From Anaerolineales bacterium (GTDB taxonomy: Bacteria; Chloroflexota; Anaerolineae; 4572-78; J111), in assembly GCA_015075405.1 (NCBI GenBank), contig JABTUK010000002.1:1860001-1924000 (forward strand): a stretch of 64,000 nt of DNA, in the 5' to 3' direction. Position 1 is the stretch's first letter. Every line of letters begins with the position of its first letter. Below are positions 4,319 through 44,962 of this stretch, piece after piece. Made by a program: the position numbers and the translations under genes. The notes below the pieces were generated by a model that was given only the letters and a program-made list of their open reading frames with translations, searched no databases and was not told the DNA's origin.

Positions 4319-7300
4319 ATGCAGGATTCCCTCTCCATCCTCTCTCTCTTCCCCCTCACCGACGAGCAGCGCACTGCCTCAACCACCGGTGAAGTAGCTG
4401 TTTCGGTTACGGCGGGGGCGGGTTCCGGCAAAACCCGGACGCTGGTCGGGCGCTACCTGGCCTTGCTGGAAGCTGGCCTGCCGCTGCGCTCGCTGCTGGC
4501 TATCACCTTCACCGATAAAGCGGCCCGCGAGATGCGCAACCGCATTCGGGCCGAAATCACCCGCTGGCTGGAGCGGTGTCCTGCCACCAGCCGGGAGCAA
4601 TGGCAGGAAGCTTTTAGCGCCCTCGACGCCGCCCGAATCAGCACTATCCACAGCCTGTGCGCCATCATTCTGCGGACGCACCCCGCCGAAACCGGCCTCG
4701 ATCCCGGCTTTGTGGTGCTGGACGAAGGCCAGAGCGCCCTTTGGCGCGCCCGCGCCGTCGAGGCCGGGCTGGCCTGGGCTACCACCGACCCGGAAGCGGC
4801 CCAACTTTTTAGCCTGTGGTCCGAAGCCCAACTACGCAGTTTGCTGACCCATTTACTGGAAAACCGATTGGATGCCATCCAGGCCCTGGCCGTTCTACCG
4901 GCTAACCCTTTGTCGTTATGGGGCGCAGTTCTGGAGCAGTGGTTCACCGCTCAGCTATCCACACCGGGCTGGCAGTCAGCCCTGGCAACACTAGCCGAGT
5001 TAAGCAGCTCTAATGAATCGGACAAGCTGGAACTGGCCCGCCGGGAAGTTCTGGCCTGTTGGGCCGAGGCGCAGCAAGCGCAAACGACGCAAGATTGGGA
5101 TGCCCTATACCCTGCGCTGCTGGCCCTGCGTAAAGCCGTTTCGACCGGCGGGGTCAAAGGCAACTGGGCGCCCGACGATTTGACGGCAGTGCGAGAAGCG
5201 ATGGCCCTGCTGCGCGATCATTTTGACAACGTGGTGAGCGGGCTGGTAGACGCCAAAAAACCATGCCGCTGGGCGCTGGACCGGCAGGCGGCGGAACGGC
5301 TGCCGGTGGTTCGCCGCCTGTTTGAACAAACCCAGGCCATTTACCAGGGCTACAAAAATGAAGCCCAATCGCTGGATTTTGATGATTTGGAGCAACTGGC
5401 CGCCCAACTCCTGGTCGGCAACACTGCCGTGCGCGCTCGTTGGCAGCGCGAAATCAACGCCATCCTGCTGGTGGACGAGTTTCAGGATACCAATCAACGC
5501 CAGCGAGAGATTGTCTATGCCCTGGCCGGGTTTGAGGAGGCGAGAAGACGAGGAGGCGAAGAGGCGAAGAGGCGAAGAGGCGAGGAAAAGAAGACTATAG
5601 AATCTGTCGCCTCCTCGCCTCACGCGCCCTCGCCTCATCCCTCCGCCTCCTCACCTCACGAGTCATCGCCTCACCCCCCCGCCTCCTCGCCTCACGCGCC
5701 CTCTCCTCACTCTCCCGCTTCCCTCTTTGTGGTGGGCGATGCCAAACAGTCCATCTACCGCTTTCGCGGCGCGGATGTGACCGTTTTTCGCCAGGTGCAG
5801 GCCGATATTAAAGCCGCCGGAGGCGCGCTGATCAACTTTGATTTGACCTTTCGGGCGCACAAGACCCTGGTGGAATTGACCAACAACCTGCTGGCCCCCC
5901 TTATGCCCGCTGCCGATGACCCGGCCCGGCCCTACGAAGTGCCCTTTACCCCGCTCCTGGCCCATCGCCCACAATCACGCGAACAGATCCGTCCGCCATA
6001 CCTGGAATTTCAATTGGGTCTGGGTGAGAACAAGGAGACGGGACGACATGCAGCGGCGGCTGGCCTGGCTGAGCGGCTGCGCGAGTTACAAGCCGGCGGT
6101 CAAATCGAGTGGCAAGACGTGGCTTTGCTGTTTCGGGCCAGCACCGCCTTCGGCGTCTACGAAGACGCCCTGGAGCAGGCCGGCATCCCCTTTGTGACCA
6201 TTGCCGGGCGCGGCTTTTATGATCGCCCCGAAATCCGCGATTTGCTCAATGCGCTGGCCGCCCTGGCCGACCCCACCGATGACCTGGCTATGGCCGGATT
6301 GCTGCGTTCGCCCGCCATTGGTCTGAGCGACAGCGCGATTTACCGGCTGCGCTGGTCCAGATCAGGGACACGTCGGTCCTTTTGGTCAGCCCTGCGCCGC
6401 GAGAGTGTGTTGGCCGATTTGCCGGAGGGGGATCGTGACCGGGCTGATTTTGCCCGGCAGCTTATCGCCGATTTGCATGCCCAAGCCGGGCGGGTATCGG
6501 TGGCCCAACTGCTCAAGGCGTTTCTGGATGCGACCCACTACCGGGCTATCTTGCGCCTGGTCACTGGCGGCGAACGGCTGCGCCGCAATGTGGACAAGCT
6601 GCTGGCCGACGCTCACCGCAGTGAATTGGTCAGTATCCCGGCCTTCTTGGAATATCTCGCTGCGCTGGGGGATGTGGGCGTCCGCGAGAGTGAAGCTCCC
6701 ACCGAGGCCGGCGGGGCGGTGCAGTTGATGACCATCCACAAGGCCAAAGGGCTGGAATTTCCGGTGGTGGTGTTGGCCGACGCCGGGTACACCGGCGGAT
6801 TTCGCGCCGCGCCATTTTACCTGGATCAGGACTTAGGCTTGCTGCTCAATCCCTCCGGCGACGAGAGCCAGCCAGCCGCCTTTCGTTTGGCCGCCTGGCG
6901 GGAAGCGCAACAGGAAGCGGCTGAAGAGAAACGGCTGCTTTATGTGGCAGCCACGCGGGCTATGGAAAAATTCATCGTCTCCGGCAACGTTACGGTAAGC
7001 ACGGCCAAGACTCACCCCGGCCGGCTGATGTTCAGTGGCTGGTTGAAGCAACTGGCCGAAGTTGTCGGCTTGAACGAAACTCACCTTTCCGAAACTCCAC
7101 TGGCGGCCCAAACCATTCCCCTGGCCTGGGCCGGCGGCGCAGCTATCTGCACCGTTCACCCGCCCCTCTCCTATTCTCATTTCCAACCCCCAACCCCTGA
7201 CTCCCAGCCCCTGACCCCTGACCCCGACTTCCTTGACCTGTTAGCTCCTCTCACCGTCGCGGCCAGCCCGGAATTGGATGCCAAACTCAAAGAACGCGAA

Positions 7301-40388: not shown

Positions 40389-41318
40389 ATGCCCTCCCCT
40401 GCGGATCCAATTTTATTTCAAGCAGGCCCTTTTGTTGTGCGCTGGTACGGGTTGTTAATTGTAGCCGGCGCGCTGGCCGCTGCTTATATTGCCTCCATAG
40501 AGGCGCGTCGCAAAAAAGAAGACCCGGATCATGCCTGGAATGTGCTGATCTGGTGTTTAATTTTGGGCATCATCGGCGCCCGGTTGTATCACGTACTCTC
40601 ATCTCCCGCCGGCGGCAGCCGAGGGTTCAGCTATTACTTTATCGAACAGCCCTTTACCACGATTACCCTCTTTGGGGTAGCTATCCCTTTTCCCACCGCT
40701 TTGATGATTTGGCAAGGGGGCATTGGCATTTATGGCGCGCTATTGGGCGGCATTTTGGCGGTTTTTATCTATACCCGCCGCCACCACCTGAACTTTTGGC
40801 GCTGGCTCGATAATATTGCGCCGGGCATGCTCCTGGCCCAGGCAATTGGCCGTTGGGGCAACTTTTTCAACCAGGAACTTTATGGCCCACCGACTGATCT
40901 ACCCTGGGGCATTACCATCACCAACGCCAATCAGCGGATTCCTCCCTACAATGACTTGACTGCTTATCCCCTGGAAACAACCACCTTCCATCCCGTTTTC
41001 CTGTACGAGTCGCTTTGGAATTTGATCGGGTTTGGACTACTCATGTGGATCGCCCGCAAATACGCCCATAAATTATTGGATGGCGACCTGCTCTCGTTGT
41101 ATCTGATCTGGTACTCCACCGGCCGGATTCTCATCGAGTTTTTACGCCCCGATGCCTGGACCATTGGCGCTGTTCCTACGGCCCAGATTGTGGGGGCGGT
41201 CCTGATCCTGATGGGCCTGGGCCTGATGATCTACCGCCGCCGCAACCCGGCCCTGGCGACCAACCCCTTCACCCATCCCACTCCCCAACCCAAACGCCGC
41301 CGCCCGGCCCGGCCATGA
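40389..41318 (+). CDS. lgt: Prolipoprotein diacylglyceryl transferase, copy 1
   Basis: 309 residues, about seven membrane segments. The family signature GRxGNxxNxExxG appears as AIGRWGNFFNQELYG near 152, preceded by the conserved ALMIWQGGIGIYGALLGG. Lgt transfers diacylglycerol to the lipobox cysteine of prolipoproteins. The C-terminus has a Pro/Arg-rich extension. RBS GAGGAG before the ATG. A second lgt follows one gene later (43008), so the cell has at least two copies; one lipoprotein substrate (45015) is nearby. Confidence 0.93.
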   Translation: MPSPADPILFQAGPFVVRWYGLLIVAGALAAAYIASIEARRKKEDPDHAWNVLIWCLILGIIGARLYHVLSSPAGGSRGFSYYFIEQPFTTITLFGVAIPFPTALMIWQGGIGIYGALLGGILAVFIYTRRHHLNFWRWLDNIAPGMLLAQAIGRWGNFFNQELYGPPTDLPWGITITNANQRIPPYNDLTAYPLETTTFHPVFLYESLWNLIGFGLLMWIARKYAHKLLDGDLLSLYLIWYSTGRILIEFLRPDAWTIGAVPTAQIVGAVLILMGLGLMIYRRRNPALATNPFTHPTPQPKRRRPARP

Positions 41319-43007: not shown

Positions 43008-43916
43008 ATGCTCGATCCCATTCTTTACACCTTCGATTTTGGTTCGTTTCAAATTCCCATCCGCTGGTACGGCCTGCTGGTGGTGGCCGGGGCGCTGGCC
43101 GGGGCCTGGTATGCAGCCTGGTATTTCAAGCGCAAAGGCGAAGACCCCAACCTGGTCTGGGACGCGCTGATCTGGCTGCTCATTTCCGGCATCGTCGGGG
43201 CCAGAATTTGGTATGTGGTTTCCGACATCATCGGCGGGGGGCAGCGCTACCTGACTGATCCTCTGTCCATTGTTTACATTAACCAGGGCGGCTTGAACAT
43301 CCTGGGCGGGGTGATGTTGGCCGCCCTGGTGGGCTGGTACTACGCCAAACGCAACAAAATTGACTTCTGGCTGCTGGCCGACGCCATTGGCCCCGGCGCA
43401 CTGCTGGGCCAGGCCATTGGCCGCCTGGGCAATTACATCAACCAGGAACTCTACGGCCCGCCGACCACGCTGCCCTGGGGTATTCCCATCGAAGCTGCCC
43501 ACCGCCTCGCTCCCTGGAACGATATGACCCAGTACCCCTTTGAGACGACTCGCTTCCACCCGACCTTTGCTTATGAAATGATCTGGAATCTGCTGTTTGT
43601 CGGGCTGCTCACCTGGCTCATTATCCGCTACGGCGACCGGTTGAAAACCGGGGTCATCGCCGCCAGCGCCCTCGTTATCGCCGGGGTGGGCCGGACCTGG
43701 ATCGAATTGTTTCGGCCCGACCAGCCCCGCTTTTTCGGCACAGCGGTTAGCACCTCCATGGTCGTCTCGATCATTTTTGCCCTGATTGGCGTGTTTATTC
43801 TGCTGGTCAAGTTGGGAAAAATCAACGTACCCTTTATGAAAGCCGGCTCCGTGGACTACGCCCGCAAGCCGGTGCGCCGCCCCCCAAGAGAGCGTATACG
43901 CCGCCAGGAGCGGTGA
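43008..43916 (+). CDS. lgt: Prolipoprotein diacylglyceryl transferase, copy 2
   Basis: 302 residues with the same fold and signature (AIGRLGNYINQELYG; YINQGGLNILGGVMLAALVGWY). About seven membrane segments, ending in a basic tail (RRPPRERIRRQER). Diverged from copy 1, so not a recent duplication; differences in the substrate-lipid region may reflect a different donor. RBS GAGG. Word-array hairpins flank it on both sides. Confidence 0.93.
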   Translation: MLDPILYTFDFGSFQIPIRWYGLLVVAGALAGAWYAAWYFKRKGEDPNLVWDALIWLLISGIVGARIWYVVSDIIGGGQRYLTDPLSIVYINQGGLNILGGVMLAALVGWYYAKRNKIDFWLLADAIGPGALLGQAIGRLGNYINQELYGPPTTLPWGIPIEAAHRLAPWNDMTQYPFETTRFHPTFAYEMIWNLLFVGLLTWLIIRYGDRLKTGVIAASALVIAGVGRTWIELFRPDQPRFFGTAVSTSMVVSIIFALIGVFILLVKLGKINVPFMKAGSVDYARKPVRRPPRERIRRQER

Positions 43917-43919
43917 AAC

Positions 43920-44002
43920 GAGGAAGCGAAGAGGCGAAGAGGCGAGGAGGCGAAACCTTTGACGTGTCCTCGCCTCTTCGCCTCACTACGCCTCGCCTCA
44001 CA
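43920..44002. repeat. Word-array hairpin (word GAGGCGAA) between lgt2 and the selenoprotein gene
   Basis: Left arm GAAGCGAAGAGGCGAAGAGG; right arm CCTCGCCTCTTCGCCTCACT. Same word family as the insert inside addA. Confidence 0.88.
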
Positions 44003-44020
44003 CTTTAGGAGGATTAACTT

Positions 44021-44266
44021 ATGCTTACCATCACCCTTGAATACTGCCGGGTTTGAAACTACACCCCGCGGGCCGTGAGCCTGTGGCATGAACTGCTGGC
44101 AGATAAAGAGTTGGAAGCCCAAATCGAGGCGCTGACCCTCATCCCCACCAGCGGCGGCAAATTTGAAGTGACCGTCAACGGCGAGTTGGTTTTCTCCAAA
44201 AAGGGCCTGGGCCGCCACGCCGAGCCGGGGGAGGTGTACCGGCTGGTAAAAGAAAAAATGGGCTAA
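44021..44266 (+). CDS. SelW/Rdx-family selenoprotein, TGA read as selenocysteine
   Basis: 81 residues including Sec12. The start ATG at 44021 has AGGAGG at 44007-44012. The N-terminus MLTITLEYCRVUNYTPRA carries the redox motif CxxU (Cys9, TGA codon 44054-44056), as in SelW/SelT/SelH-type Rdx proteins (CxxC or CxxU after the first strand). The remainder matches the small thioredoxin-like fold: LWHELLADKELEAQIEALTL, then GGKFEVTVNGELVFSKKGLGRHAEPGEV. Directly after the TGA, bases 44066-44086 form an 8-bp stem with loop CGTGA starting 17 nt from the codon, the geometry of a bacterial SECIS. A standard gene caller would start at GTG 44075. No sel genes are in the window. Alternative: a mutated CxxC protein. 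Confidence 0.8.
44066..44086 (+). promoter_or_regulatory. Bacterial SECIS-like stem-loop
   Basis: Eight pairs (CCGCGGGC / GCCTGTGG, two of them G-U) closing a five-base loop CGTGA with G among its first two positions. The loop is 17 nt after the TGA, inside the 16-37 nt range known for bacterial selenocysteine insertion elements. Confidence 0.7.
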
Positions 44267-44384
44267 CTCAGTGATAGCGCCATTTATCAAAGCAGGCAAA
44301 ACTGGACTCAGCACTCAACAGAAGCTAAAATTAGCTAAAACTTTTCTAATGGCAATACAACCTCAAAAGTGCTGGAGGTGAGTG

Positions 44385-44621
44385 ATGACTCTGAAAGAGC
44401 AGATCGTCCAAGAGTTGAACAGCCTGAGCGAAACTGAAATTAAACAGGTCGCCGAGTATGTGGCGTTTTTGAAATTTCGGACTCGCCATCCTTTGACGTT
44501 ACCCCTGAATGAAACTAAGTTAGCCTCACTCTATGCTGAATTTGCCGAAGAAGACCGAGAGTTGGCCGAGGCAGGAATAGCAGACTATAGCGCGGGATTG
44601 GCCAGGGAAGATATAGAATGA
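44385..44621 (+). CDS. Antitoxin of a MazF-type pair
   Basis: 78 residues. MTLKEQIVQELNSLSETEIKQVAEYVAFLKF is a DUF2281-like N-terminal segment found in small antitoxins; the rest is acidic and helical. I took the ATG at 44385, six bases after GGAGG; a GTG at 44382 is too close. It overlaps the toxin gene by four bases. It would bind the downstream MazF-like ribonuclease and probably repress the operon. Confidence 0.75.
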   Translation: MTLKEQIVQELNSLSETEIKQVAEYVAFLKFRTRHPLTLPLNETKLASLYAEFAEEDRELAEAGIADYSAGLAREDIE

Positions 44622-44962
44622 TGGTCAAACGGGGTGAAATCTGGTTGGCAGATCTTAACCCAACACGCGGTTCCGAACAGGCAGGAACTCGACCTGTGCT
44701 CATTTTCCAAAACAACTTAGTCAACAAATTTACGACAACTGTGTTGGCCATTCCCCTGACAACCAACTTACGGCGAGCCGCTTTACCTTCGTGTGTCCAA
44801 ATTGCCAAAGGCGAAGGAGGACTGACGAGCGCCTCTGTGGCGCTTTGCCACCAATTGCGAGTTCTGGATACCACGAGGTTACAGCGAAAAATGGACGCGG
44901 TAAGCCAAGAAACTATCCTGGCCCTCGAAAGTTGCCTTATGTTTACAATGGGGATTGTTTAA
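44618..44962 (+). CDS. MazF/PemK-type endoribonuclease toxin
   Basis: 114 residues with the family start VKRGEIWLADLNPTRGSEQAGTRPVLI, the core LAIPLTTNL and SVALCHQLRVLD. MazF toxins cut mRNA at short sites; the conserved Arg after the GEIW...P segment and the Thr of PLTTN are catalytic. Its ATG overlaps the antitoxin stop, a typical coupled pair. Confidence 0.9.
   Translation: MMVKRGEIWLADLNPTRGSEQAGTRPVLIFQNNLVNKFTTTVLAIPLTTNLRRAALPSCVQIAKGEGGLTSASVALCHQLRVLDTTRLQRKMDAVSQETILALESCLMFTMGIV

Follow-up and report, generated by a model that had tools for sequence, protein, structure and literature searches.

SelW-like proteins with a CxxU motif have been recognised as bacterial selenoproteins since 2005. 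They were the most abundant selenoprotein family in the Sargasso Sea set of 2005, with 48 genes (PMC1088965), and the GOS survey of 2008 found them to be the most abundant prokaryotic selenoprotein family, with 427 Sec and 56 Cys forms (PMC2398784). A 2006 survey remarks that Cys homologues of the SelW-like family are few in Sec-using organisms, and it lists the Chloroflexi with three selenoproteins of three families (PMC1794560). A redox role is suggested by the CxxU motif, and glutathione is an interaction partner of SelW (PMC1088965). It is on record that SelW genes are overlooked by annotation (PMC4607533). The open-access literature, outside which most subscription journals lie, yielded no paper about SelW in Chloroflexota.

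The window, that is, the whole stretch of 64,000 nucleotides of an Anaerolineales genome that was analysed, holds one more member of this long-known and common bacterial family. On sequence evidence, we consider it nearly certain that 44021-44266 on the plus strand is a SelW-like (Rdx/TIGR02174) selenoprotein gene, the UGA at 44054 of which is decoded as Sec to give a redox product with a thioredoxin fold. The gene encodes 81 amino acids, MLTITLEYCRVUNYTPRAVSLWHELLADKELEAQIEALTLIPTSGGKFEVTVNGELVFSKKGLGRHAEPGEVYRLVKEKMG, and its frame is closed by a TAA ending at 44266. The only internal stop is the TGA at 44054-44056, which completes the CxxU redox motif Cys9-Arg-Val-Sec12 (44045-44056). A Shine-Dalgarno sequence, AGGAGG, lies at 44007-44012 with a spacer of 8 nt to ATG 44021. 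The initial annotation had pointed to this AGGAGG, to the CRVU with its TGA, and to a coherent Rdx-like frame running on to 44266; each is borne out, and the Pfam Rdx match spans the TGA. It had also expected a gene caller to start at GTG 44075 and to lose the active site, and table 11 ORF calling does leave only a 63-residue frame at 44075-44266 on the plus strand, devoid of the CxxU. Such a remnant, whose GTG sits inside a hairpin loop, is what standard gene calling is expected to yield and is not the real gene. The selW catch matters mainly as an annotation correction, and the same truncation by table 11 would apply to many Chloroflexota genomes.

The window gene shares family, size and CxxU site with the described bacterial SelW-like selenoproteins (PMC1088965, PMC2398784). 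Both have a TGA followed by a bacterial-type SECIS, and in the close relatives of the window gene, as in the described family, the Sec form is far commoner than the Cys form. There is no difference in kind; the host is an Anaerolineae genome.

Judged by its sequence, the product is a member of the SelT/SelW/SelH (Rdx, TIGR02174) family in its CxxU form. Pfam Rdx (PF10262) matches residues 3-77, across the TGA, with E = 4.9e-17 and 62.3 bits against a cut-off of 22.6, and NCBIfam TIGR02174, "SelT/SelW/SelH family protein", scores 56 bits against a curated cut-off of 34.2. The C9 and C/U12 columns are invariant in 41 aligned proteins. An AlphaFold2 model of the 81-residue product, built from 41 sequences, has a pLDDT of 96.7. 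Bacterial SelW-related proteins head its PDB matches, among them 2p0g, "Selenoprotein W-related", with a TM of 0.85-0.88. In the model, CRVU (residues 9-12) follows strand 2-9 of a thioredoxin-like fold. The solved Rdx CxxC proteins 2p0g, 2fa8, 3dex and 2obk share this fold and align with the window protein over the full length, but carry Cys where the window gene has TGA; in 3dex, 2fa8 and 2p0g the TGA is aligned with the second Cys of CxxC. By analogy with the family, the likeliest role of the Cys9/Sec12 pair is that of a thiol/selenol oxidoreductase. Mouse SelW (2npb) is a weaker match of the model, sharing the fold at a TM of about 0.6, and has a CxxU motif, as does the window protein. The eukaryotic SECIS is sited in the 3′ UTR. 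In contrast, the window hairpin lies within the coding region, just after the UGA.

When stops of any kind were read through, the genome and its 60 relatives yielded 27 Rdx matches. Exactly one stop is present in 26 of these, it is always TGA, and it sits in the CxxU; the remaining match is a TGA-free Cys form. A second set comprises 94 aligned loci with a legible active site. It was found with patterns from the window protein rather than sampled at random, and it overlaps the 27 matches in at least one genome, L021 and L033 being one and the same gene. Of these 94 loci, 88 carry Sec (TGA) at the active-site position and 6 carry Cys. A 95th locus, L065, has TGA at this position too. The alignment of homologues at the TGA column, a check proposed in the initial annotation, thus gives Sec or Cys in the 94 relatives, never Trp or Arg. 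Two genomes (G010 and G006) carry a second, divergent TGA-bearing Rdx copy alongside the main one (L031 and L032, respectively).

These alignments bear on two readings in which the TGA is not a Sec codon. The gene might be a pseudogene, in which a nonsense mutation struck an Rdx gene that once encoded CxxC, or the TGA might be a base-calling error, and indel-rich stretches do exist in this assembly (see below). However, the genus-mate, whose protein is 84% identical, has the same TGA, as do dozens of genomes from several phyla that were assembled independently. The alignment of the window copy with its relative is free of gaps over 236 bp. Compared with the genus-mate, dN/dS is 0.06 before the TGA and 0.20 after it, with 19 of the 36 changes after the TGA at third positions; compared with more distant family members, dN/dS after the TGA is 0.10-0.35. 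By these ratios, purifying selection acts on both sides of the TGA, and both sides are coding sequence. With the TGA conserved and the downstream coding sequence constrained, we regard the pseudogene or error reading as refuted and give it hardly any credence. An equally small chance is left to the proposal that the 63-residue ORF from GTG 44075 is the real gene, a shortened Rdx protein without active site. That frame is open by table 11, but conservation in the 11 codons upstream of the TGA is no lower than in the remainder, and the ATG and the AGGAGG belong to the upstream part. Moreover, no purine-rich Shine-Dalgarno sequence precedes GTG 44075, a hairpin-loop position, and Cys homologues cross the site in one frame.

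A third reading, which is even less probable than these two, is that UGA has been reassigned to Trp or Gly throughout the genome, instead of being recoded as Sec. We found nothing in its support, and it is refuted by normal TGA stops: ordinary genes end in TGA, e.g., lgt at 43914-43916. It is further opposed by the position being Cys in homologues and by the presence of a Sec-type UCA tRNA, SelA and SelD. The genome has selC, a tRNA-Sec(UCA), at C3:678884-678978 (69.7 bits), selA at C1:956339-957691 (SelA 585 bits, an intact frame of 463 aa) and selD at C1:425335-426270 (SelD 374 bits). SelD has a Sec of its own in KCAGUASK, the TGA of which is at G000:C1:426238-426240 (L117:2239-2241, minus strand) and is followed by a hairpin; this is the usual, known Sec site of SelD. 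The other TGA-bearing gene thus argues against reassignment as well. Among the Rdx, SelD, AhpD-like and FdhA-like matches in the genome, SelD alone joins the window gene as a Sec gene; the seven AhpD-like matches (PF02627) and all FdhA-like matches have no in-frame TGA.

The initial annotation had asked for selABCD in the genome. The check turned up selA, selD and the tRNA-Sec(UCA); selB is present, but frameshifted. Its intact frame is missing from this assembly, which is the weak point in the case for Sec decoding. Parts of selB lie in several frames at C4:34134-36048, the sole good candidate in the assembly. Because its neighbours are frameshifted too, and because the genus-mate (G001) has an intact selB frame of 636 aa, the split is read as an assembly error. 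In G000:C4:30000-36100 (locus L115), comparison with the genus-mate shows frameshifts in selB, cysN, cysD and their neighbours alike. Against the genus-mate, 2.8 kb of the cysD/cysN stretch has 42 gap openings and the 3.2 kb containing selB has 21, and the selW island has none. Assembly indels are, from these alignments, the best explanation of the split selB.

For the SelW-like selenoprotein gene, decoding would proceed as follows. SelA, supplied with selenophosphate by SelD, would turn Ser-tRNA(Sec) into Sec-tRNA(Sec). SelB, binding the hairpin at 44066-44086, would bring the Sec-tRNA(Sec) to the ribosome, where UGA 44054 would be decoded as selenocysteine, an insertion predicted from the family. 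The resulting protein of 81 residues would have a thioredoxin fold, and its Cys9/Sec12 pair, again by family resemblance, would exert redox activity on a partner.

The predicted SECIS hairpin extends from 44066 to 44086 on the plus strand. Its 8-bp stem (44066-44073 paired with 44079-44086) encloses the loop CGTGA (44074-44078); the stem begins after a spacing of 9 nt from the TGA, and the loop is 17 nt away. The bSECIS model allows a loop of 3-9 nt, a stem of 4-16 bp, a G among the first two nucleotides of the loop, a distance of 16-37 nt from the UGA and an MFE of at most -7.5 kcal/mol (PMC13188914). The window hairpin, with a 5-nt loop (CGUGA) that has G second, an 8-bp stem, a distance of 17 nt and -14.3 kcal/mol, lies within all of these limits. 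The stem, loop and distance claimed in the initial annotation, which had placed the hairpin in the bacterial range of 16-37 nt, are upheld. Taken alone against random controls, the hairpin is only moderately unusual and not extreme, with z = -1.84 against dinucleotide shuffles and p = 0.015 against synonymous-codon shuffles that keep the protein. Across the family, Sec genes form hairpins that are more stable than their synonymous shuffles, with a mean z of -1.8 (n = 83, many of them close relatives); Cys genes, a small group (n = 6), show no such excess, with a mean z of -0.2. At locus L027, from a relative, the 8-bp stem is kept, with compensating changes, read by eye, in the three outer pairs. 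A search of Rfam gave no match at the SECIS and only chance-like miRNA matches to an upstream inverted repeat.

The window's loop at +17 differs from the +21/22 that is usual among the relatives collected here. A register with its loop at about +21/22 (register B) is found in 61 of the 83 Sec relatives, and one with its loop at +17/18 (register A) in 18, the window's family included. Over all 83 sequences, register B pairs in 89% of cells, against 24-51% when slid, and double changes occur in 47 cells, compared with 14.5 in shuffles. In the 7 sequences of the window's family, register A pairs in 83% of cells, against 10-43% when slid. In these 7 sequences its covariation shows no excess over shuffles, and since the shuffles do equally well, covariation is not shown for register A. 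On the protein tree, which has few columns and on which registers are labelled by pairing counts, register A needs four changes, gains or losses, at least three of which are forced by well-supported branches. We see an even chance that the SECIS moved between the two registers (about +17 and about +21/22) several times, with the AVSL residues nearly kept and some genes forming both hairpins. If so, SelB tolerates a shift of 4-5 nt, and a SECIS can slide inside constrained coding sequence. The two-register SECIS is a natural test set for the tolerance of SelB to hairpin shifts. Such register switching in the SelW-like family seems to be what is new here, modestly.

The initial annotation had described selenoproteins as patchy in Chloroflexota, and this claim failed. 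Of 400 species drawn evenly from the Chloroflexota, 321 have selA above the cut-off and 186 have an Rdx match, which suggests that Sec decoding and SelW-like genes are common in the phylum. Little is said of Chloroflexota Sec decoding in the papers found, despite this frequency of selA. Among the 60 nearest relatives selA is nearly universal (53 of 61 with the genome itself) and so uninformative, for which reason the co-occurrence analysis was repeated over the phylum. Among the matches listed, selA is present in 94 of 95 genomes with a TGA-bearing Rdx (one of the 94, G283, with a weaker match only, 5.1e-68) versus 31 of 43 with TGA-free Rdx only; the Fisher test on these genome lists, coded by hand from match tables, gives p = 2.5e-6 and ignores relatedness.

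In the relatives' loci, the gene neighbours of the window's selW recur in the genus-mate only, other clades having other neighbours, and so guilt by association points to no substrate. A SelD-like gene is close to the SelW gene at L085, L086, L090 and L050, which come from three genomes of Sutcliffiella/Bacillus horikoshii and one of Anaerolineaceae; the distance is at most about 1.3 kb at three of these loci and about 5 kb at the other. Directly downstream of selW in the window is a PemK/MazF-like toxin gene (44618-44962), preceded by a small ORF that is likely an antitoxin (44382-44962 for the pair). Just upstream, two paralogues of Lgt, the prolipoprotein diacylglyceryl transferase, at 40389-41318 and 43008-43916, flank a sulfatase gene. 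A dispersed repeat, GAGGCGAAGAGGCG, occurs in the window at 43923-43984 and 5537-5590. The 9-Mb genome has 100 exact copies of it, 57 forward and 43 reverse, against 0 in a reversed-letter control. The repeat is often arranged in tandem 8-bp steps, and between lgt and selW it forms a perfect 18-nt inverted repeat.
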